NCBI GenBank assembly: GCA_016932475.1
Contig: JAFGCU010000010.1
Coordinates: 1 to 47,163 of the forward strand
Source: Anaerolineales bacterium
GTDB taxonomy: Bacteria > Chloroflexota > Anaerolineae > Anaerolineales > RBG-16-64-43
Direction of reading: 5' to 3'
Length of the DNA: 47,163 nucleotides
The number at the start of each line of letters is the position of its first letter. Within the stretch, counting starts at the first letter, position 1. The notes under the pieces are model-generated. The model saw nothing but the letters and a program-made list of their open reading frames with translations. It was not told where the DNA came from and made no database searches. This document shows positions 469 through 6,228 of this stretch, piece by piece. The translations under genes and the position numbers were made by a program.

Positions 469-497
469 TTGACACTAGAACAAATGTTCTGCATACT
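469..497 (+). promoter_or_regulatory. Promoter with a LexA (SOS) box
   Basis: TTGACA (469-474) is followed after 17 bases by CATACT (492-497). The perfect palindrome AGAACAAATGTTCT (477-490) fills the spacer and matches the Gram-positive SOS box GAAC-N4-GTTC. That box type has been reported for LexA of the Chloroflexi member Dehalococcoides. Its position between -35 and -10 is that of a repressor site. The ATG at 504 is 7 bases after the -10, so the transcript is probably leaderless; no Shine-Dalgarno is visible. Confidence 0.8.
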
Positions 498-503
498 GTG
501 GGC

Positions 504-1178
504 ATGGATAATGAACGCGCGCTGGATGTTTCGCAGCAGGCGCCGGCCGGGCTGGCCGCGCTCTACGGGCCGGATTCGGTCCCCTTGGCGCTCGCGCTGA
601 CCGCGCAGATCGCGCTGCGGCGGCCGGTGTGGGTGATAGACGGCGGCAACCGGTTCGACGCGCTGTGGCTGGCGGAGTACGTCGCCCGCAGCGGGCAGGC
701 GCCCGAGCCGGTCCTCGCGCGCATCAACATCTCGCGCGCCTTCACCTGCCACCAGATGGCCGAGCGCATTCTCTCGCTGCCCGCGGAGGCCGCGCCACTG
801 GTGATCCTGCACCTCCTGGATACGTTCTACGACGAGAACGTGCCGATTACCGAGGCGCGCCGGCTGCTCAACGCGCTCTGGCCGGTGTTGCGCCGCCGCA
901 GCCGCAACGTCCCGGTCGCGCTCACCGTGCACCCGCCGCGCTCCGAACGCGTCGCGGACCGGGAATCTTTCTACGACGGGATCCTGCGCCGGGCCGACCG
1001 GCGCGTGGGGCCGGAGCAGGAGGCGGCCGCCCCGCCGCCCCCGACGGCGCTTCCCGGTTTTGACAATCCCCTCCGGGCGAATCTCCCGGCACGGGAGCGG
1101 GATTTCCGGCATCCGCTTCCGCCGCTTGCGGACCGAAATCCATCGCCCGAATCCACCCCACCTCTCCATTTGGGGTAG
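504..1178 (+). CDS. RecA-superfamily-like ATPase with degenerate P-loop (ImuA/Rad55-like), SOS-controlled
   Basis: The protein has 224 residues. Its layout follows a RecA/KaiC-type core: LYGPDSVPLALALTA where the P-loop helix should be, VWVIDGGNRFD like the strand after it, and LVILHLLDTFYDE as a Walker B-like strand. The P-loop lacks the GKT/S lysine, so ATP hydrolysis is doubtful and a structural, ImuA-like or Rad55-like role is more likely. ATG 504 is chosen because the promoter and LexA box lie directly upstream; the in-frame codon at 444 would overlap them. The last residues and the TAG stop fall in an inserted repeat, so the C-terminus may be altered. It is first in a three-gene operon with the small protein and PolB. 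Family assignment is by pattern only. Confidence 0.65.
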   Translation: MDNERALDVSQQAPAGLAALYGPDSVPLALALTAQIALRRPVWVIDGGNRFDALWLAEYVARSGQAPEPVLARINISRAFTCHQMAERILSLPAEAAPLVILHLLDTFYDENVPITEARRLLNALWPVLRRRSRNVPVALTVHPPRSERVADRESFYDGILRRADRRVGPEQEAAAPPPPTALPGFDNPLRANLPARERDFRHPLPPLADRNPSPESTPPLHLG

Positions 1179-1276
1179 TAGGGGCGCAGCATTGCTGCGC
1201 CCCTACGGGAAGGGGAGGAGGGGTGCCTTCCGCCCCGGCGGTCTTTCGGGGCGAAGGCGGGGAGATGGGGTTGGGG
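1154..1276. repeat. Composite palindromic repeat (family A with a nested GTAGGGGCG palindrome)
   Basis: The outer arms CCACCCCACCTCTCC and GGGGAGATGGGGTTGGGG are imperfect inverted copies. Inside is a perfect 29-base palindrome at 1178-1206 (GTAGGGGCGCAGC, centre ATT, then its complement) and a hairpin GCCCCG...CGGGGC. The right half matches the element at 148-282, and the 29-base palindrome has a sister at 11735-11763. It separates genes 1 and 2 of the SOS operon and supplies the stop codon of gene 1. Confidence 0.75.
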
Positions 1277-1290
1277 CAGGAGGTTGAATC

Positions 1291-1575
1291 ATGGGACGGA
1301 CCCTGGTTTCGATCACCCAACAGTTGGCGCAGGCCGAGGAACGCCTCGGCCGCTACCGCCGCGCGCTCACCCGCGCCGACCAGAAAATCTTCGACGACCT
1401 GTTTGCCCTGGCCCGCCGCCGGCTGGCCGCCTCCTCGATGGCCGCCGACCCCCTGCCGATGCAGATCATCCTGCTGGGGATGCTGATCGGCACCGCCTCG
1501 GCCGTGGCCGGCCTCGCGGCGCGCGTGGAGGCGCTCGAACATGAACGCCCGCTCCCTCCCCGCCTGGATCCTTGA
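1291..1575 (+). CDS. Small helical protein of the RecA-like/PolB operon
   Basis: This 94-residue protein starts MGRTLVS and has a strong Shine-Dalgarno (CAGGAGG) 6-7 bases upstream. It is mostly helical, with RYRRALTRADQKIFDDLF as its most characteristic segment, then a hydrophobic stretch (PLPMQIILLGMLIG) and a short coil-like end (ARVEALEHE). It resembles, from memory, short 'MGRT' proteins of haloarchaea, which also carry a YRRAL-x2-xDQ-x3-F-x-x-L pattern; this is unverified. Its last 35 bases overlap the polymerase start in another frame, which suggests translational coupling. A role as partner or adaptor of the polymerase is inferred from position only. Confidence 0.7.
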   Translation: MGRTLVSITQQLAQAEERLGRYRRALTRADQKIFDDLFALARRRLAASSMAADPLPMQIILLGMLIGTASAVAGLAARVEALEHERPLPPRLDP

Positions 1576-4048
1576 CCTCTACCCCGCTCCGGAAGGCATG
1601 GTCCTGTGGCTGAAGACGGACGACGGCCGCGCGCTGCGCGCGGTCGACGAATTGCCGATGAGCTTCTTCATCGCCGCGGAGCCTTCCATTCTGCGCGCCG
1701 CGTGGAAGGAAATCTCCGGGTGGAAAAAAGGGCTGCTTCTCGCGCGCGAGCGCCGCTTCGAGATCCACCGCGGCGAGGAGATCGATCTTTTGAGCGTCAC
1801 CGCGCCGGGGCCGCTCCCCTACCGCGCCGCGGTGCGCGAGGCGCTCGCGCGCTGGCCGGACCTCGCCTTCTACAACGCCGACCTCGACCCGGCCCTGGTC
1901 TACGCGGTCGAGCGCAACGTGTTCCCCCTCGCCGAGTGCCAGGTCACCCTGGAAGGGGCGCGGGTGCGGGCGATTACGACCGGTCGGACCCGCTGGGACC
2001 TGGCCGCCGAGCCGCCGCCGTTCCGCATCCTCACCCTGCGCCTGACCGGCGAACTGCGCGACCCCTCCCACGGGTACCGCGCGCCGCTCGAGATCACCGC
2101 ACCGGGGATGCCCGCCCAAACCTGCGCGTGGGATGACCCGCGCGAACTGGTCGAGGCGGTCCGCAGCGCGATCCTCGCTTACGATCCCGACATCCTGCTC
2201 ACCGCCTGGGGCGATTCGTTCCTGCTGCCCGAACTGATCGCGCTCGCGCGCCGGTCCGGCATCGACCTGCCGCTCAACCGCGACGCGCGCCGGAGCGTGC
2301 TGCGCAAGGGCGAGCGCTCCTACTTCTCCTATGGAAGAATCGTCCACCGTCCCTCCTCGGTCTGGCTTTTCGGCCGTCTGCACATCGACCGCCAGACCGC
2401 CTTCCTGGCCGACGAGTACGGGCTGGACGGATTGGTGGAGCTCGCGCGCACCACGCTCCAGCCGCTGCAGCAGGTGGCGCGCACCTCCTCCGGCACCGGG
2501 ATCAGCGCGATGCAGACGGCCGAAGCCTACCGGCGCGGATGGCTGATCCCCTACCGCAAGCGGACGCCTGAGGATTTCAAGACCGCGCTCGAACTCGTGC
2601 GCGGCGACAAGGGCGGGCTGACCTTCCAGCCCGAGCCGGGGCTTTACGAACACGTGCTCGAACTGGATTTCGCCTCGATGTACCCGAGCCTGATGGTGAA
2701 GTTCAACCTCTCGGCCGAGACGGTCGGGCGGACGTGCCCGAAGTGTGAATCCCGAGGGCCGATAGGCCCGAGGGATCGGCCGCAAGTCGCGCCCTCATCC
2801 CCTCACTCCCCTTCTCCCAGCGCCTGCCCCCCGAGCGATGAGCATCGGTGGACTGCCGATGCGAAGACTTCGCGAGTGGGGGTATGCTGGGAGAAAGGGA
2901 AGGGGGATGAGAGAGGAGAGAAAGGGGAGCGAGGGGATGAGGAAGGAAGAACGAACGATGCTGCGGAGTTGGGCGCCCCGCCGAGAATCATCCCCGAGAT
3001 CGGCTACCCGGTGTGCCAGTGCCGCAAGGGGATCGTCCCGCTCACGCTCGCGCCGCTCCTGGAGAAGCGCCTTGCCCTGAAAAAGGCCGCGCGCGCGCTG
3101 CCCGAGGGGCCGGAGCGCGAAGTGCTGCGCCGCCGGCAGGTGGCGCTCAAGTGGCTGCTGGTGACCTGCTTCGGGTACCTCGGCTACAAGAACGCGCGCT
3201 TCGGGCGGATCGAGGCCCACGAATCCACGACCGCCTGCGGGCGAGATACGCTCCTGCGCGCCAAGGAGATCGCCGAGGAGCGCGGCTACCTCTTCCTGCA
3301 CGCGCTCACCGACGCGCTGTGGATCTACAAGGAGGGTTCGACCGACGCCGACCACCAGGCGCTGGTGGAGGAGATCGGGCGCGATACGGGTGTGCGGATC
3401 GACATCGAGGGGCTCTACCGCTGGCTGGCGTTCCCGCCCTCGCGCCAGTACGCCGGCAACCCGGTAGCCAACCGCTACTTCGGCGCGTTCGAGGACGGCA
3501 AGATCAAGATGCGCGGGATCGAAGCCCGGCGCCACGACACGATCCGCTGGATCCGCGAGGCGCAGGCCGAGATGCTCGAGGTCCTCGCCCGCGCCCGGAA
3601 CGCGGCGGAATACCGCGCGCGCATGGCGGAGGTGTTTGCGATCGCGCGCGGGAAGCTCGCCGACCTGCAGCGCGGCGCGGTTCCGCCGCGCATGCTCGCC
3701 ATCCTGCACCGGCTCTCGCAGCCGCCGGAGGAGTACCGCGCCAATTTGCCGGTGGCGCTCGCGGCGCGCGCGCTGGCGGCGAGCGGGGTGCATCTGGCGC
3801 CGGGCGAATCGGTTGAGTTCGTGCTGACGCTGGGGGGCGGGGCGCGGCCCTACGACATCTGGCGCGCCACCGACCGGGTGGATGCCGCCCGCTACCGCGA
3901 GCTCTTCCTGCGCATGCTCGAAAGCCTGGCCGTCCCGGCCGGATACGACCGCGCCGCGATCCTCGCCCGGCTCGACGGCATCTGGCAGGACCCGCTCCCG
4001 GGGATGGAGCGGGTCGCGACCGGCGGGTTGCTGCCGGCGGCGGCGTAA
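1541..4048 (+). CDS. B-family DNA polymerase, exonuclease motifs absent (PolB2-like)
   Basis: The protein has 835 residues, about 75 of them from an inserted repeat. Motif A is intact (LELDFASMYPS, Asp376). Motif B is partly kept (Lys537 in VALKWLLVTCFGYLGY). Motif C, normally YxDTDS, reads HALTDALW: the first Asp is lost and the second, the metal ligand, is kept as Asp591. No proofreading triad is visible: Exo I reads LTLRLTG (164-170) instead of an xDIEx motif, and the Exo II and III regions (222-232, 281-300) are also degenerate. Polymerase activity without proofreading is plausible. It resembles the archaeal PolB2/Dpo2 group and its few bacterial relatives. The Cys pairs CPKC (399-402) and CQC (492-494) flank the insert and may form a metal site. 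Last gene of the SOS-type operon. Confidence 0.88.
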   Translation: MNARSLPAWILDLYPAPEGMVLWLKTDDGRALRAVDELPMSFFIAAEPSILRAAWKEISGWKKGLLLARERRFEIHRGEEIDLLSVTAPGPLPYRAAVREALARWPDLAFYNADLDPALVYAVERNVFPLAECQVTLEGARVRAITTGRTRWDLAAEPPPFRILTLRLTGELRDPSHGYRAPLEITAPGMPAQTCAWDDPRELVEAVRSAILAYDPDILLTAWGDSFLLPELIALARRSGIDLPLNRDARRSVLRKGERSYFSYGRIVHRPSSVWLFGRLHIDRQTAFLADEYGLDGLVELARTTLQPLQQVARTSSGTGISAMQTAEAYRRGWLIPYRKRTPEDFKTALELVRGDKGGLTFQPEPGLYEHVLELDFASMYPSLMVKFNLSAETVGRTCPKCESRGPIGPRDRPQVAPSSPHSPSPSACPPSDEHRWTADAKTSRVGVCWEKGKGDERGEKGERGDEEGRTNDAAELGAPPRIIPEIGYPVCQCRKGIVPLTLAPLLEKRLALKKAARALPEGPEREVLRRRQVALKWLLVTCFGYLGYKNARFGRIEAHESTTACGRDTLLRAKEIAEERGYLFLHALTDALWIYKEGSTDADHQALVEEIGRDTGVRIDIEGLYRWLAFPPSRQYAGNPVANRYFGAFEDGKIKMRGIEARRHDTIRWIREAQAEMLEVLARARNAAEYRARMAEVFAIARGKLADLQRGAVPPRMLAILHRLSQPPEEYRANLPVALAARALAASGVHLAPGESVEFVLTLGGGARPYDIWRATDRVDAARYRELFLRMLESLAVPAGYDRAAILARLDGIWQDPLPGMERVATGGLLPAAA
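2792..2942. repeat. Palindromic repeat inserted in frame within the polymerase gene
   Basis: The outer arms CCTCATCCCC (2793-2802) and GGGGATGAGG (2933-2942) are inverted copies, as are TTCTCCCAGC (2812-2821) and GCTGGGAGAA (2886-2895). A third hairpin, GCATCGG/CCGATGC, sits at 2842-2862. The same CTCATCCC / TTCTCCCAGC / GCTGGGAGAA / GGGATGAG layout occurs between khpA and rimM (45464-45535). The frame stays open and adds about 75 low-complexity residues (Pro/Ser-rich, then Gly/Glu/Lys-rich) between motif A and the Cys-containing loop. Confidence 0.85.
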
Positions 4049-4509
4049 ACCCCGAAGGACACGAAGAAAACCCGAAAGAGCACGAAGAAAATTATCATCC
4101 ATGGGACGGGGCGGCGCAGTGAGAGACGGGCGGAAACGCCGGGTTAGGTGCCGGCTCGGGAAGCCTGGATCGTCCGCCTTTTTCCCCGGCCGCCGCGACC
4201 ACGGCGGATACGATCCGCAACGGTTCCACGAACTTGTTTTGCGGCATCAATCGTTCCATAATATATCCTTGCCGGAGGCGGATATGCCGGTTGATGCAGT
4301 CCGGAGATCGGGTGATTCCCGAAAGACGGGAGCGGAAAAAACAGGGTAGATTAAAATAGACCGGAGAAAAGCCGAATAGATAATCAAATGAAGGGGTAAT
4401 TCGCGAATTGACGGACGGCCGCCGGAGGAATGCTTGACCGGTGCGGATCGCGACGGGCGATCCTATCCAGCGGCCGGCGGATCATCCTTCATTAAACCCG
4501 GAGGGCGGT
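4049..4509. other. Gene-free stretch after the polymerase
   Basis: No gene is recognised. The first 50 bases hold two near-copies of a short GA-rich phrase (GGACACGAAGAAAACCCGAAA then GAGCACGAAGAAAA), a kind of degenerate direct repeat. The rest has no clear palindrome. An AT-richer segment (4340-4400) may carry the promoter for the DUF3352 gene, but no convincing -35/-10 pair stands out. Confidence 0.5.
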
Positions 4510-6228
4510 ATGAACTCTAAAAAATGGATCGTGGCGGGTGCGGCGGTGCTCGTCGTCGGCTGTCTTTGCCTTTGCTGCGGAGGTTCCGTCATCGTGATCG
4601 CCGATCCCTTCCAGATACACTTGCTGGATCTGATTTTCGGACGGGCCGATCCGCTCGTGCAATCCGTGCCGGATACGGTTCCGGTGATCGCCTCAATCGA
4701 TCTGAAAAGCCTGGCCTCGGCCGATACCCTGGACGTGATAAACGCCTTTGCCGGCGCGTCGGGCGGCGAAGAAACCGAGGACATGCAGGATTACCGGAAA
4801 GAGAAAATCGACCCTTGGATGGAAGAAAACCTTGGGGTAAACATCGAGGAGGATATCCTGCCGTGGCTGGGGCAATTCGTCGATCTGGCCGTCTTTTCCG
4901 TCAACCCCCCTCAGCCGCAGCAGACCCTCCCGCTTGTCGAGCGGATGGTCTTGCTGGCCGAGATCCGTGACCGCGAGAAAGCGGATTCCTTTATTGGAAA
5001 GCTGATCGATTCGACTGCCCGAAAGCTGGGGATTGATTGGGCGGAGGATTCGTACGGCGGAGTCACGGTCCATCGGGGTCTGCTCCAGGGGTACGGCCAG
5101 TCCATGATGTACTTGGCCCGGTCCGGGAACATTTTGCTGTGGACGACGGATGAGCTTTCACTTCGCAAGGTGATCGATACACAATCCGGCAGCGAAACAC
5201 CGATATCGAAGGCGGAATGGTATCGGAAAACGATTGCACAACTGCCGGGTGAAAAGGCTGTGACCTTCCTGGCGTCCGGAAACGCGTTCCAGGATCTCTC
5301 CGGAATGGCGAATTCCACAGTCGGCGGCGTGAACGCCGGAGCCTTCTCGATGCTCAATTACCAGAATGCCGTTCAAGGGGTCGGATTCTCCCTGACCGCC
5401 GTTCCTCAAGGCCTGCGGATGTATACGGTCGCCAATTACGACACGGACCGGTTGACGACTGACCAGCAAGCGGCGTTGTTTTCAGCCGGGGCGTTGAACG
5501 ACACCGAGCGTTTGCCGGATGCCACGCTGGCTTTCCTCTGCGGGCAAAACCTGGGATTAAGCTGGAAAAACGCCAAAGATCTGTTATTGGCCGAGTTGCC
5601 CGGCGGGGATTTCGATGAAACGATGCAATCCCTGGAAAAACAAATCGGGTTCAATCCGGACGAGGACTTATTCCCCTACCTCACCGGCGACTGGTCCATC
5701 GCCCTGCTGCCGAACGCAGAACAAGGATCCGCGGATCCGGAGGGGGCGGACCTCGGGTATGTCGTTTCGGTCGATACCTCCGACGAGGACGATCTGCGGC
5801 GGACTGTCGGAAAATTCAACGATGCCCTGGAGCATGAGCGCGGCGTCACGGTGGAACCGCGTTCTATCGCCGGGATCGACGCGTATCGGCTCATTTCCGG
5901 TCCGGATCATGAGACGCTCGCGGTGTACGGGGTGGGGAAGGATCATCTGACGATCGCCTCCTCGGATTATATTTTTATGGATGTGAACAACGGAGGATCG
6001 TCCATTACTAGCGCGGCGGTGTATGAGGAGGCTTGGTCCGGGATCCCAACCGGGTTCGCGCCGGTATTGTATTTCGATTTGCGCGGAATCATGGACTATG
6101 TGACAGATCGTGAACTCACGGATCAATTTAAGGGGATCCTGGATCCGGTATTGACGGTGGTATTCGGCACGAAGAACGCAGGGCAAGGAACAATCGTAAA
6201 CGTGGTTCAGGTAAACATCGAAAAGTAA
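4510..6228 (+). CDS. Membrane-anchored DUF3352-family protein
   Basis: A 572-residue protein. The ATG at 4510 is preferred because GGAGGGCGG lies just upstream; the frame extends to 4441 without a better signal. Residues about 7-30 form a hydrophobic anchor with a Cys cluster (GCLCLCCGG), so the remainder is probably outside the membrane. The phrase PDTVPVIASIDLKSL soon after the anchor, later repeats of LPDATLAFLCGQNL type, and LGYVVSVDTSDEDDL fit the DUF3352 family, whose biochemical role is unknown. It lies 243 bases upstream of an FHA-winged-helix regulator in the same direction, close to a Ser/Thr kinase, so a link to cell-envelope signalling is possible but unproven. Confidence 0.7.
   Translation: MNSKKWIVAGAAVLVVGCLCLCCGGSVIVIADPFQIHLLDLIFGRADPLVQSVPDTVPVIASIDLKSLASADTLDVINAFAGASGGEETEDMQDYRKEKIDPWMEENLGVNIEEDILPWLGQFVDLAVFSVNPPQPQQTLPLVERMVLLAEIRDREKADSFIGKLIDSTARKLGIDWAEDSYGGVTVHRGLLQGYGQSMMYLARSGNILLWTTDELSLRKVIDTQSGSETPISKAEWYRKTIAQLPGEKAVTFLASGNAFQDLSGMANSTVGGVNAGAFSMLNYQNAVQGVGFSLTAVPQGLRMYTVANYDTDRLTTDQQAALFSAGALNDTERLPDATLAFLCGQNLGLSWKNAKDLLLAELPGGDFDETMQSLEKQIGFNPDEDLFPYLTGDWSIALLPNAEQGSADPEGADLGYVVSVDTSDEDDLRRTVGKFNDALEHERGVTVEPRSIAGIDAYRLISGPDHETLAVYGVGKDHLTIASSDYIFMDVNNGGSSITSAAVYEEAWSGIPTGFAPVLYFDLRGIMDYVTDRELTDQFKGILDPVLTVVFGTKNAGQGTIVNVVQVNIEK

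Follow-up and report, generated by a model that had tools for sequence, protein, structure and literature searches.

In this study, we examined a stretch of 47,163 nucleotides from an Anaerolineales bacterium of the Chloroflexota (assembly GCA_016932475.1, contig JAFGCU010000010.1, positions 1 to 47,163; here called the window) and found that three genes near its start are iRadA, PPB2, and PolB2 as the literature defines them. We hold it to be highly probable that this locus, from a Chloroflexota bacterium of the Anaerolineae type, is an SOS-controlled PolB2 mutasome operon. Comparison at the sequence level establishes the parts of the operon, their order, the layout and conservation of the promoter, the sharing of its LexA box, and the PolB2 ancestry of the polymerase. 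An earlier interpretation made from the letters of the DNA alone (the sequence-only reading) had described a perfect box between the -35 and -10 elements of a three-gene operon encoding a RecA-superfamily-like protein without a P-loop lysine, a 94-residue MGRT protein, and a PolB lacking exonuclease motifs and with a reduced motif C. Each of these elements was recovered in our analysis.

Composition and ancestry of the three-gene operon

The three genes are co-directional, all three reading frames are open, and the open reading frame (ORF) of PolB2 overlaps PPB2 by 35 nucleotides (Table 1). Among 101 genomes of the order (that of the window plus 100 relatives), PolB2 was present in 43, or in 42 if one marginal match is excluded, and the PolB2 loci of 39 relatives were fetched for neighborhood analysis. 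The order iRadA-PPB2-PolB2 was conserved: 37 of the 39 loci had iRadA ahead of polB2, and PPB2 was automatically recognized in 37. Exceptions were a fragment at a contig end (L087), a divergent locus in which iRadA was unrecognized (L084), and a locus with an MGR start but without a significant PPB2 match (L082); in L081, iRadA and PPB2 are fused. All 38 aligned PPB2 orthologs (window counted) start with MG, almost all of them with MGRT.

The window iRadA gave no match in Pfam or NCBIfam. A profile of the iRadA family matched RadA in the PDB (E = 3e-6), and the predicted model of the protein (mean predicted local distance difference test, pLDDT, of 85) matched RadA, Rad51, and Dmc1 at Z ~17 over 153 to 165 residues. 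The alignment to RadA begins past the Walker A region, and the corresponding stretch, ALYGPDSVPLALAL, contains no lysine. The protein has a RadA/Rad51 fold without the N-terminal domain and without the Walker A lysine, with an invariant RAFT (residues 78-81) and a conserved DGGN (46-49). In most relatives, iRadA terminates with a beta-clamp-like motif (e.g., QLPLF); the iRadA of the window's family has no such end and carries a long proline-rich tail instead (residues ~175-224 of the window protein; positions 1026-1178).

The polymerase ORF matches PF00136 (E = 2.4e-29), and its AlphaFold model (pLDDT 83) matched archaeal PolB with Z 27 over ~650 residues. Alignment to proofreading PolBs revealed that ExoI (DxE), ExoII (ND), and ExoIII (YxxxD) are absent from the window protein. 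Motif A (DFASMYPSL) is intact. Motif B, KILMNSFYG in the proofreading enzymes, is KWLLVTCFG here, with loss of the asparagine, and motif C is LTD versus DTD, with loss of the first aspartate. The D(K/R) motif, which in the PolB2 mutasome makes contact with PPB2, is present, and its D356 is invariant across 14 sequences. In a tree of 37 sequences, which resulted from a quick search and has its bacterial outgroup on a very long branch, the window protein fell within the Chloroflexota PolB2 (96% support in the Shimodaira-Hasegawa-like approximate likelihood ratio test, SH-aLRT), beside other bacterial PolB2 and archaeal PolB2 (88%). At 99% SH-aLRT, the PolB2 clade stood apart from the proofreading PolB enzymes of bacteria and from the PolB3-like ones of archaea. 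The sequence-only reading had regarded the operon as a bacterial parallel to archaeal PolB2/Dpo2; our tree and a published one show instead that these belong to one family by descent and did not arise independently.

The residues lost from motifs B and C, together with the designation of PolB2 as inactivated in PMC4104785, would fit an older reading of PolB2, according to which the polymerase has no catalytic activity and the complex plays a structural or regulatory part at stalled forks instead of performing translesion synthesis. We consider this unlikely, since the aspartate of motif A and the second aspartate of motif C are retained in the window PolB2, and since Dpo2 of S. islandicus, with IID as its motif C, is reported in PMC11791011 to be active and needed for targeted mutagenesis.

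The promoter and its LexA-type box

The operon is preceded by a sigma-70-like promoter, and the box GAACAAATGTTC within its spacer is the sole perfect match to GAAC-N4-GTTC across the window. Because ~0.9 matches per window are expected by chance, the presence of the box proves nothing alone; its weight comes from placement and conservation. The operon promoters of two other members of the window's family (G001 and G003) have the same layout and a near-identical sequence, and the extended palindrome TAGAAC-N4-GTTCTA is the common form of the box in orthologous operons. The -10 element ends 6 bases ahead of the iRadA ATG at 504; transcription is predicted to start at about this ATG, and the iRadA message may therefore be leaderless. 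The same gap of 6 nucleotides between the -10 element and the ATG (492-506 in the window) was seen in L050 and L051.

For the counts of boxes, only perfect matches to GAAC-N4-GTTC were considered, and up to 1 kb before iRadA was taken as the upstream region. The 35.6 kb upstream of iRadA contained 27 boxes, where 0.16 would be expected at the background rate, versus 1 box in the remaining 228 kb of the same loci. A reversed control pattern occurred 0 times upstream and once in the remaining sequence. At least one box was present in 25 of 38 loci (window counted), which do not represent independent events because the loci are related, although spacers and flanks of the boxes do vary among them. 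In a second locus collection, considering loci with adequate upstream sequence, a box was found in 15 of 24 Chloroflexota loci versus 2 of 37 archaeal PolB2 loci.

The lexA gene of the host, located on contig C6, has the promoter TTGACA-CAGAACGATTGTTCGTG-TACGAT, whose layout is the same as that of the operon promoter. Furthermore, 28 of 30 lexA loci of relatives carry a perfect box, mostly 70 to 110 nucleotides ahead of the lexA match. We therefore regard GAAC-N4-GTTC as the LexA motif of this lineage; literature searches returned no direct report of a LexA motif in Chloroflexi. The host recA has a one-mismatch box, GAACAGAATTTC, immediately 5' of its start. With an operator common to the lexA promoter and the promoters of orthologous operons, a feature of LexA regulon members, the operon is very likely under LexA control, as far as can be judged from sequence. 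A lexA gene adjoining the operon was sought and not found in the loci of the order; such a neighbor does occur in L197, L201, and L202, which are loci from Nitrospirae and Bacteroidetes.

The box could also be a chance match or the site of another regulator, since only 8 bases of the 12-mer are fixed and the genome holds 59 matches, most of them probably unrelated. Its conservation ahead of both the operon and lexA, together with the promoter layout shared with lexA, makes this explanation very improbable. The 59 sites, compiled by pattern search and from fetched stretches, were dropped as a list of the regulon, as several look accidental, including one overlapping the mraZ start codon and one downstream of dnaA. 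The checks that the sequence-only reading had proposed, on gene order, polymerase ancestry, and upstream boxes, thus came out in its favor: the three genes co-occur in relatives, boxes are present in orthologous promoters, and the polymerase stands apart from proofreading PolB.

By analogy with characterized systems, we infer repression and induction by LexA, complex formation, and translesion activity. In the undamaged cell, LexA bound to the box in the promoter spacer would block RNA polymerase. DNA damage would lead to activation of RecA and self-cleavage of LexA, whereupon the three proteins would be made together. As in the published model, a trimer of PPB2 may join PolB2 and a single iRadA to make up the holoenzyme; the PolB2-iRadA contact would mimic the subunit-subunit binding of Rad51, and one PPB2 would extend its MGRT arm into the PolB2/iRadA cleft close to the active site. 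PolB2, being without proofreading, could then extend mispaired or lesion-containing primer ends, providing damage tolerance with mutations as the cost.

Integrity of the window copy and variation among relatives

Some observations weigh against the interpretation of the locus as a working SOS mutasome operon. No perfect box was found within 1 kb upstream in 13 of the 38 loci; one of these is truncated by a contig end, and in four others a box with one mismatch lies within 100 nucleotides. A beta-clamp-like motif is found at the C terminus of iRadA in 27 of 38 orthologs but not in the window protein; a clamp-binding motif at the C terminus of iRadA or PolB2 is optional, and only some published members have one. 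Finally, the window PolB2 contains an in-frame insert of ~70 residues, overlooked by the sequence-only reading, that might impair the enzyme.

This insert is situated between motifs A and B, in a loop that varies in length and has CPKC and CQC on its two sides; its repeat core has ~40 other copies in the genome. Within the window, further copies are found before the promoter (~150-290) and between iRadA and PPB2. The insert is predicted to be disordered (pLDDT <50 at residues 408-477), and the remaining fold is confident. It is lineage specific: the window genome and the sister species G001, whose copy is 80% identical to that of the window, each have a different in-frame insert, and G003 has a loop of 12 residues only.

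The repeats located in PolB2, ahead of the promoter, and in the iRadA-PPB2 gap, together with the lost clamp-like motif of iRadA, could mean that the window copy is decaying through repeat insertions even though the family is functional. We regard this as quite improbable: the three frames are open, box and promoter are intact, the insert is predicted to be disordered and sits in a loop that varies in length, and G001 carries an in-frame insert of its own. Because of the insert and the missing clamp motif, we are less confident about full function of this particular copy than about the assignment of the locus as a mutasome operon, but still consider it probable.

In many relatives, a co-directional gene for a LuxR/GerE-type helix-turn-helix (HTH) protein of ~135 to 150 amino acids (PF00196, E ~5e-15) lies upstream of iRadA (16 order-set loci and 8 second-set loci; Table 1). 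A perfect box also occurs within 1 kb in 13 of those 16 order-set loci. It mostly precedes the LuxR-type gene; L072 and L075 have it between this gene and iRadA. Where the box lies ahead of it, the LuxR-type gene would open the SOS operon, and it is likely the first gene of that operon in relatives carrying both. It was discarded as a regular part of the window operon, being absent there and from the window's family; the closest LuxR-type matches elsewhere in the window genome are covered mostly in the HTH.

No Y-family polymerase (PF00817) was detected in the window genome (G000), and none was found in three of four family members (G001, G003, and G004). Across the order set, a Y-family gene is present in 66 of 101 genomes. 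The idea that PolB2 replaces the Y-family throughout the order was rejected, as Y-family genes occur in 31 of 42 PolB2 genomes versus 35 of 59 others (Fisher p = 0.14), so that the two kinds of polymerase do not exclude each other. We tentatively suggest, as a reading less likely than not, that SOS mutagenesis in this Chloroflexota lineage relies mainly or solely on the PolB2 mutasome as its dedicated polymerase. The mutasome would be wired directly to LexA through the promoter of its operon and, among sister families, would be encoded in a four-gene SOS operon headed by the LuxR-type gene. Downstream of the operon, at 4441-6228 (start probably at 4510), lies a gene for a DUF3352 protein (PF11832) with no evident operon link.

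Table 1. Features of the operon in the window and loci of relatives with a LuxR-type gene
Feature	Position	Strand	Details
Promoter, sigma-70-like	469..497	+	-35 TTGACA at 469-474, 17-nucleotide spacer, -10 CATACT at 492-497
LexA box	478..489	.	perfect GAAC-N4-GTTC within the promoter spacer
iRadA	504..1178	+	224 amino acids; RadA/Rad51-like, no P-loop lysine, C-terminal extension
Dispersed repeat copy, C-rich	1179..1290	.	between iRadA and PPB2; 79% identity over 73 nucleotides to the copy at 216-286
PPB2	1291..1575	+	94 amino acids; arCOG07300 type, N-terminal MGRT
PolB2 catalytic subunit	1541..4048	+	835 amino acids; no exonuclease motifs, motif C LTD, DK motif D356-K357
In-frame insertion in PolB2	2745..2990	+	residues ~405-478 (~70 residues), with dispersed-repeat core
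LuxR-type gene, order-set loci			L059, L061, L063-L067, L071, L072, L074, L075, L077-L079, L084, L085
LuxR-type gene, second-set loci			L139, L146, L147, L191, L198, L199, L207, L211

Relation to known systems

The sequence-only reading had considered a PolB mutasome of this kind undescribed. This claim fails because PMC4104785 (2014) and PMC11791011 (2025) already describe the three genes, including bacterial ones with lexA nearby. Makarova (2014) linked PolB2, arCOG07300, and an inactive RadA, reported the trio in bacteria too, and noted lexA in the Leptospirillum cluster (PMC4104785). Timinskas, Timinskas and Venclovas (2025) named PPB2 and iRadA, described the MGRT motif, and modeled a heteropentamer as the PolB2 mutasome; the bacterial gene order was solely iRadA-PPB2-PolB2, and lexA was enriched near bacterial polB2 (PMC11791011). 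The main text of that paper does not mention promoter boxes, Chloroflexi, or LuxR. The prediction was restated in a 2026 survey (PMC12926913), and S. islandicus Dpo2 is the subject of PMC8764526 and PMC7390963.

The locus is a well-documented further case of the known iRadA-PPB2-PolB2 machine and not a new system. New are the conservation of the LexA box in Anaerolineae-type Chloroflexota, the LuxR-type first gene in 16 relatives, the in-frame dispersed repeat inside PolB2, and a host in which a Y-family polymerase was undetected. In the literature consulted, the bacterial PolB2 mutasome is tied to the SOS response only through nearby lexA genes; with a conserved operator, direct control by LexA becomes a concrete proposition that can be tested over the whole order. 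An archaeal-type repair machine would thus be placed under a bacterial damage switch, and a lineage apparently without Y-family polymerase offers a clean setting to ask whether PolB2 alone explains damage-induced mutation in bacteria.

The window operon shares with the published PolB2 mutasome (PMC11791011) the three genes, the bacterial order, the inactive RadA, the MGRT of PPB2, and an exonuclease-less PolB2 without the first aspartate of DxD; an association with lexA is reported for bacterial members. It differs in that the LexA boxes are here located in promoters, that a LuxR-type gene comes first in many relatives, that the window iRadA ends without a clamp motif, and that the window PolB2 bears a repeat-containing insert. 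The Dpo2 operon of S. islandicus (PolB2, arCOG07300, and RadA-like) has homologous components and is reported to be damage-inducible, but it is archaeal, and its regulation is described in PMC11791011 as LexA-free and linked to Orc1/Cdc6. In Leptospirillum ferriphilum (LFML04_0990-0993; PMC4104785), bacterial genes for an inactivated PolB, arCOG07300, and RadA likewise are likely under SOS control; its lexA lies within the cluster, whereas that of the window organism is on contig C6.

The likeness to ImuA-ImuB-DnaE2 drawn by the sequence-only reading holds for the SOS-linked, mutasome-like operon logic, with a RecA-like protein, an accessory protein, and an error-prone polymerase. It does not extend to the subunits: that system employs C-family and Y-family proteins, and none of the three window proteins matched an ImuA, ImuB, or DnaE2 family, the polymerase families matched here being PolB only. 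Escherichia coli Pol V (UmuD'2-UmuC-RecA) also combines a polymerase with a RecA-family protein and a small accessory subunit, a comparison made in the published work; in contrast, its polymerase belongs to the Y-family, it uses active RecA, and its UmuD is a LexA-like protease.

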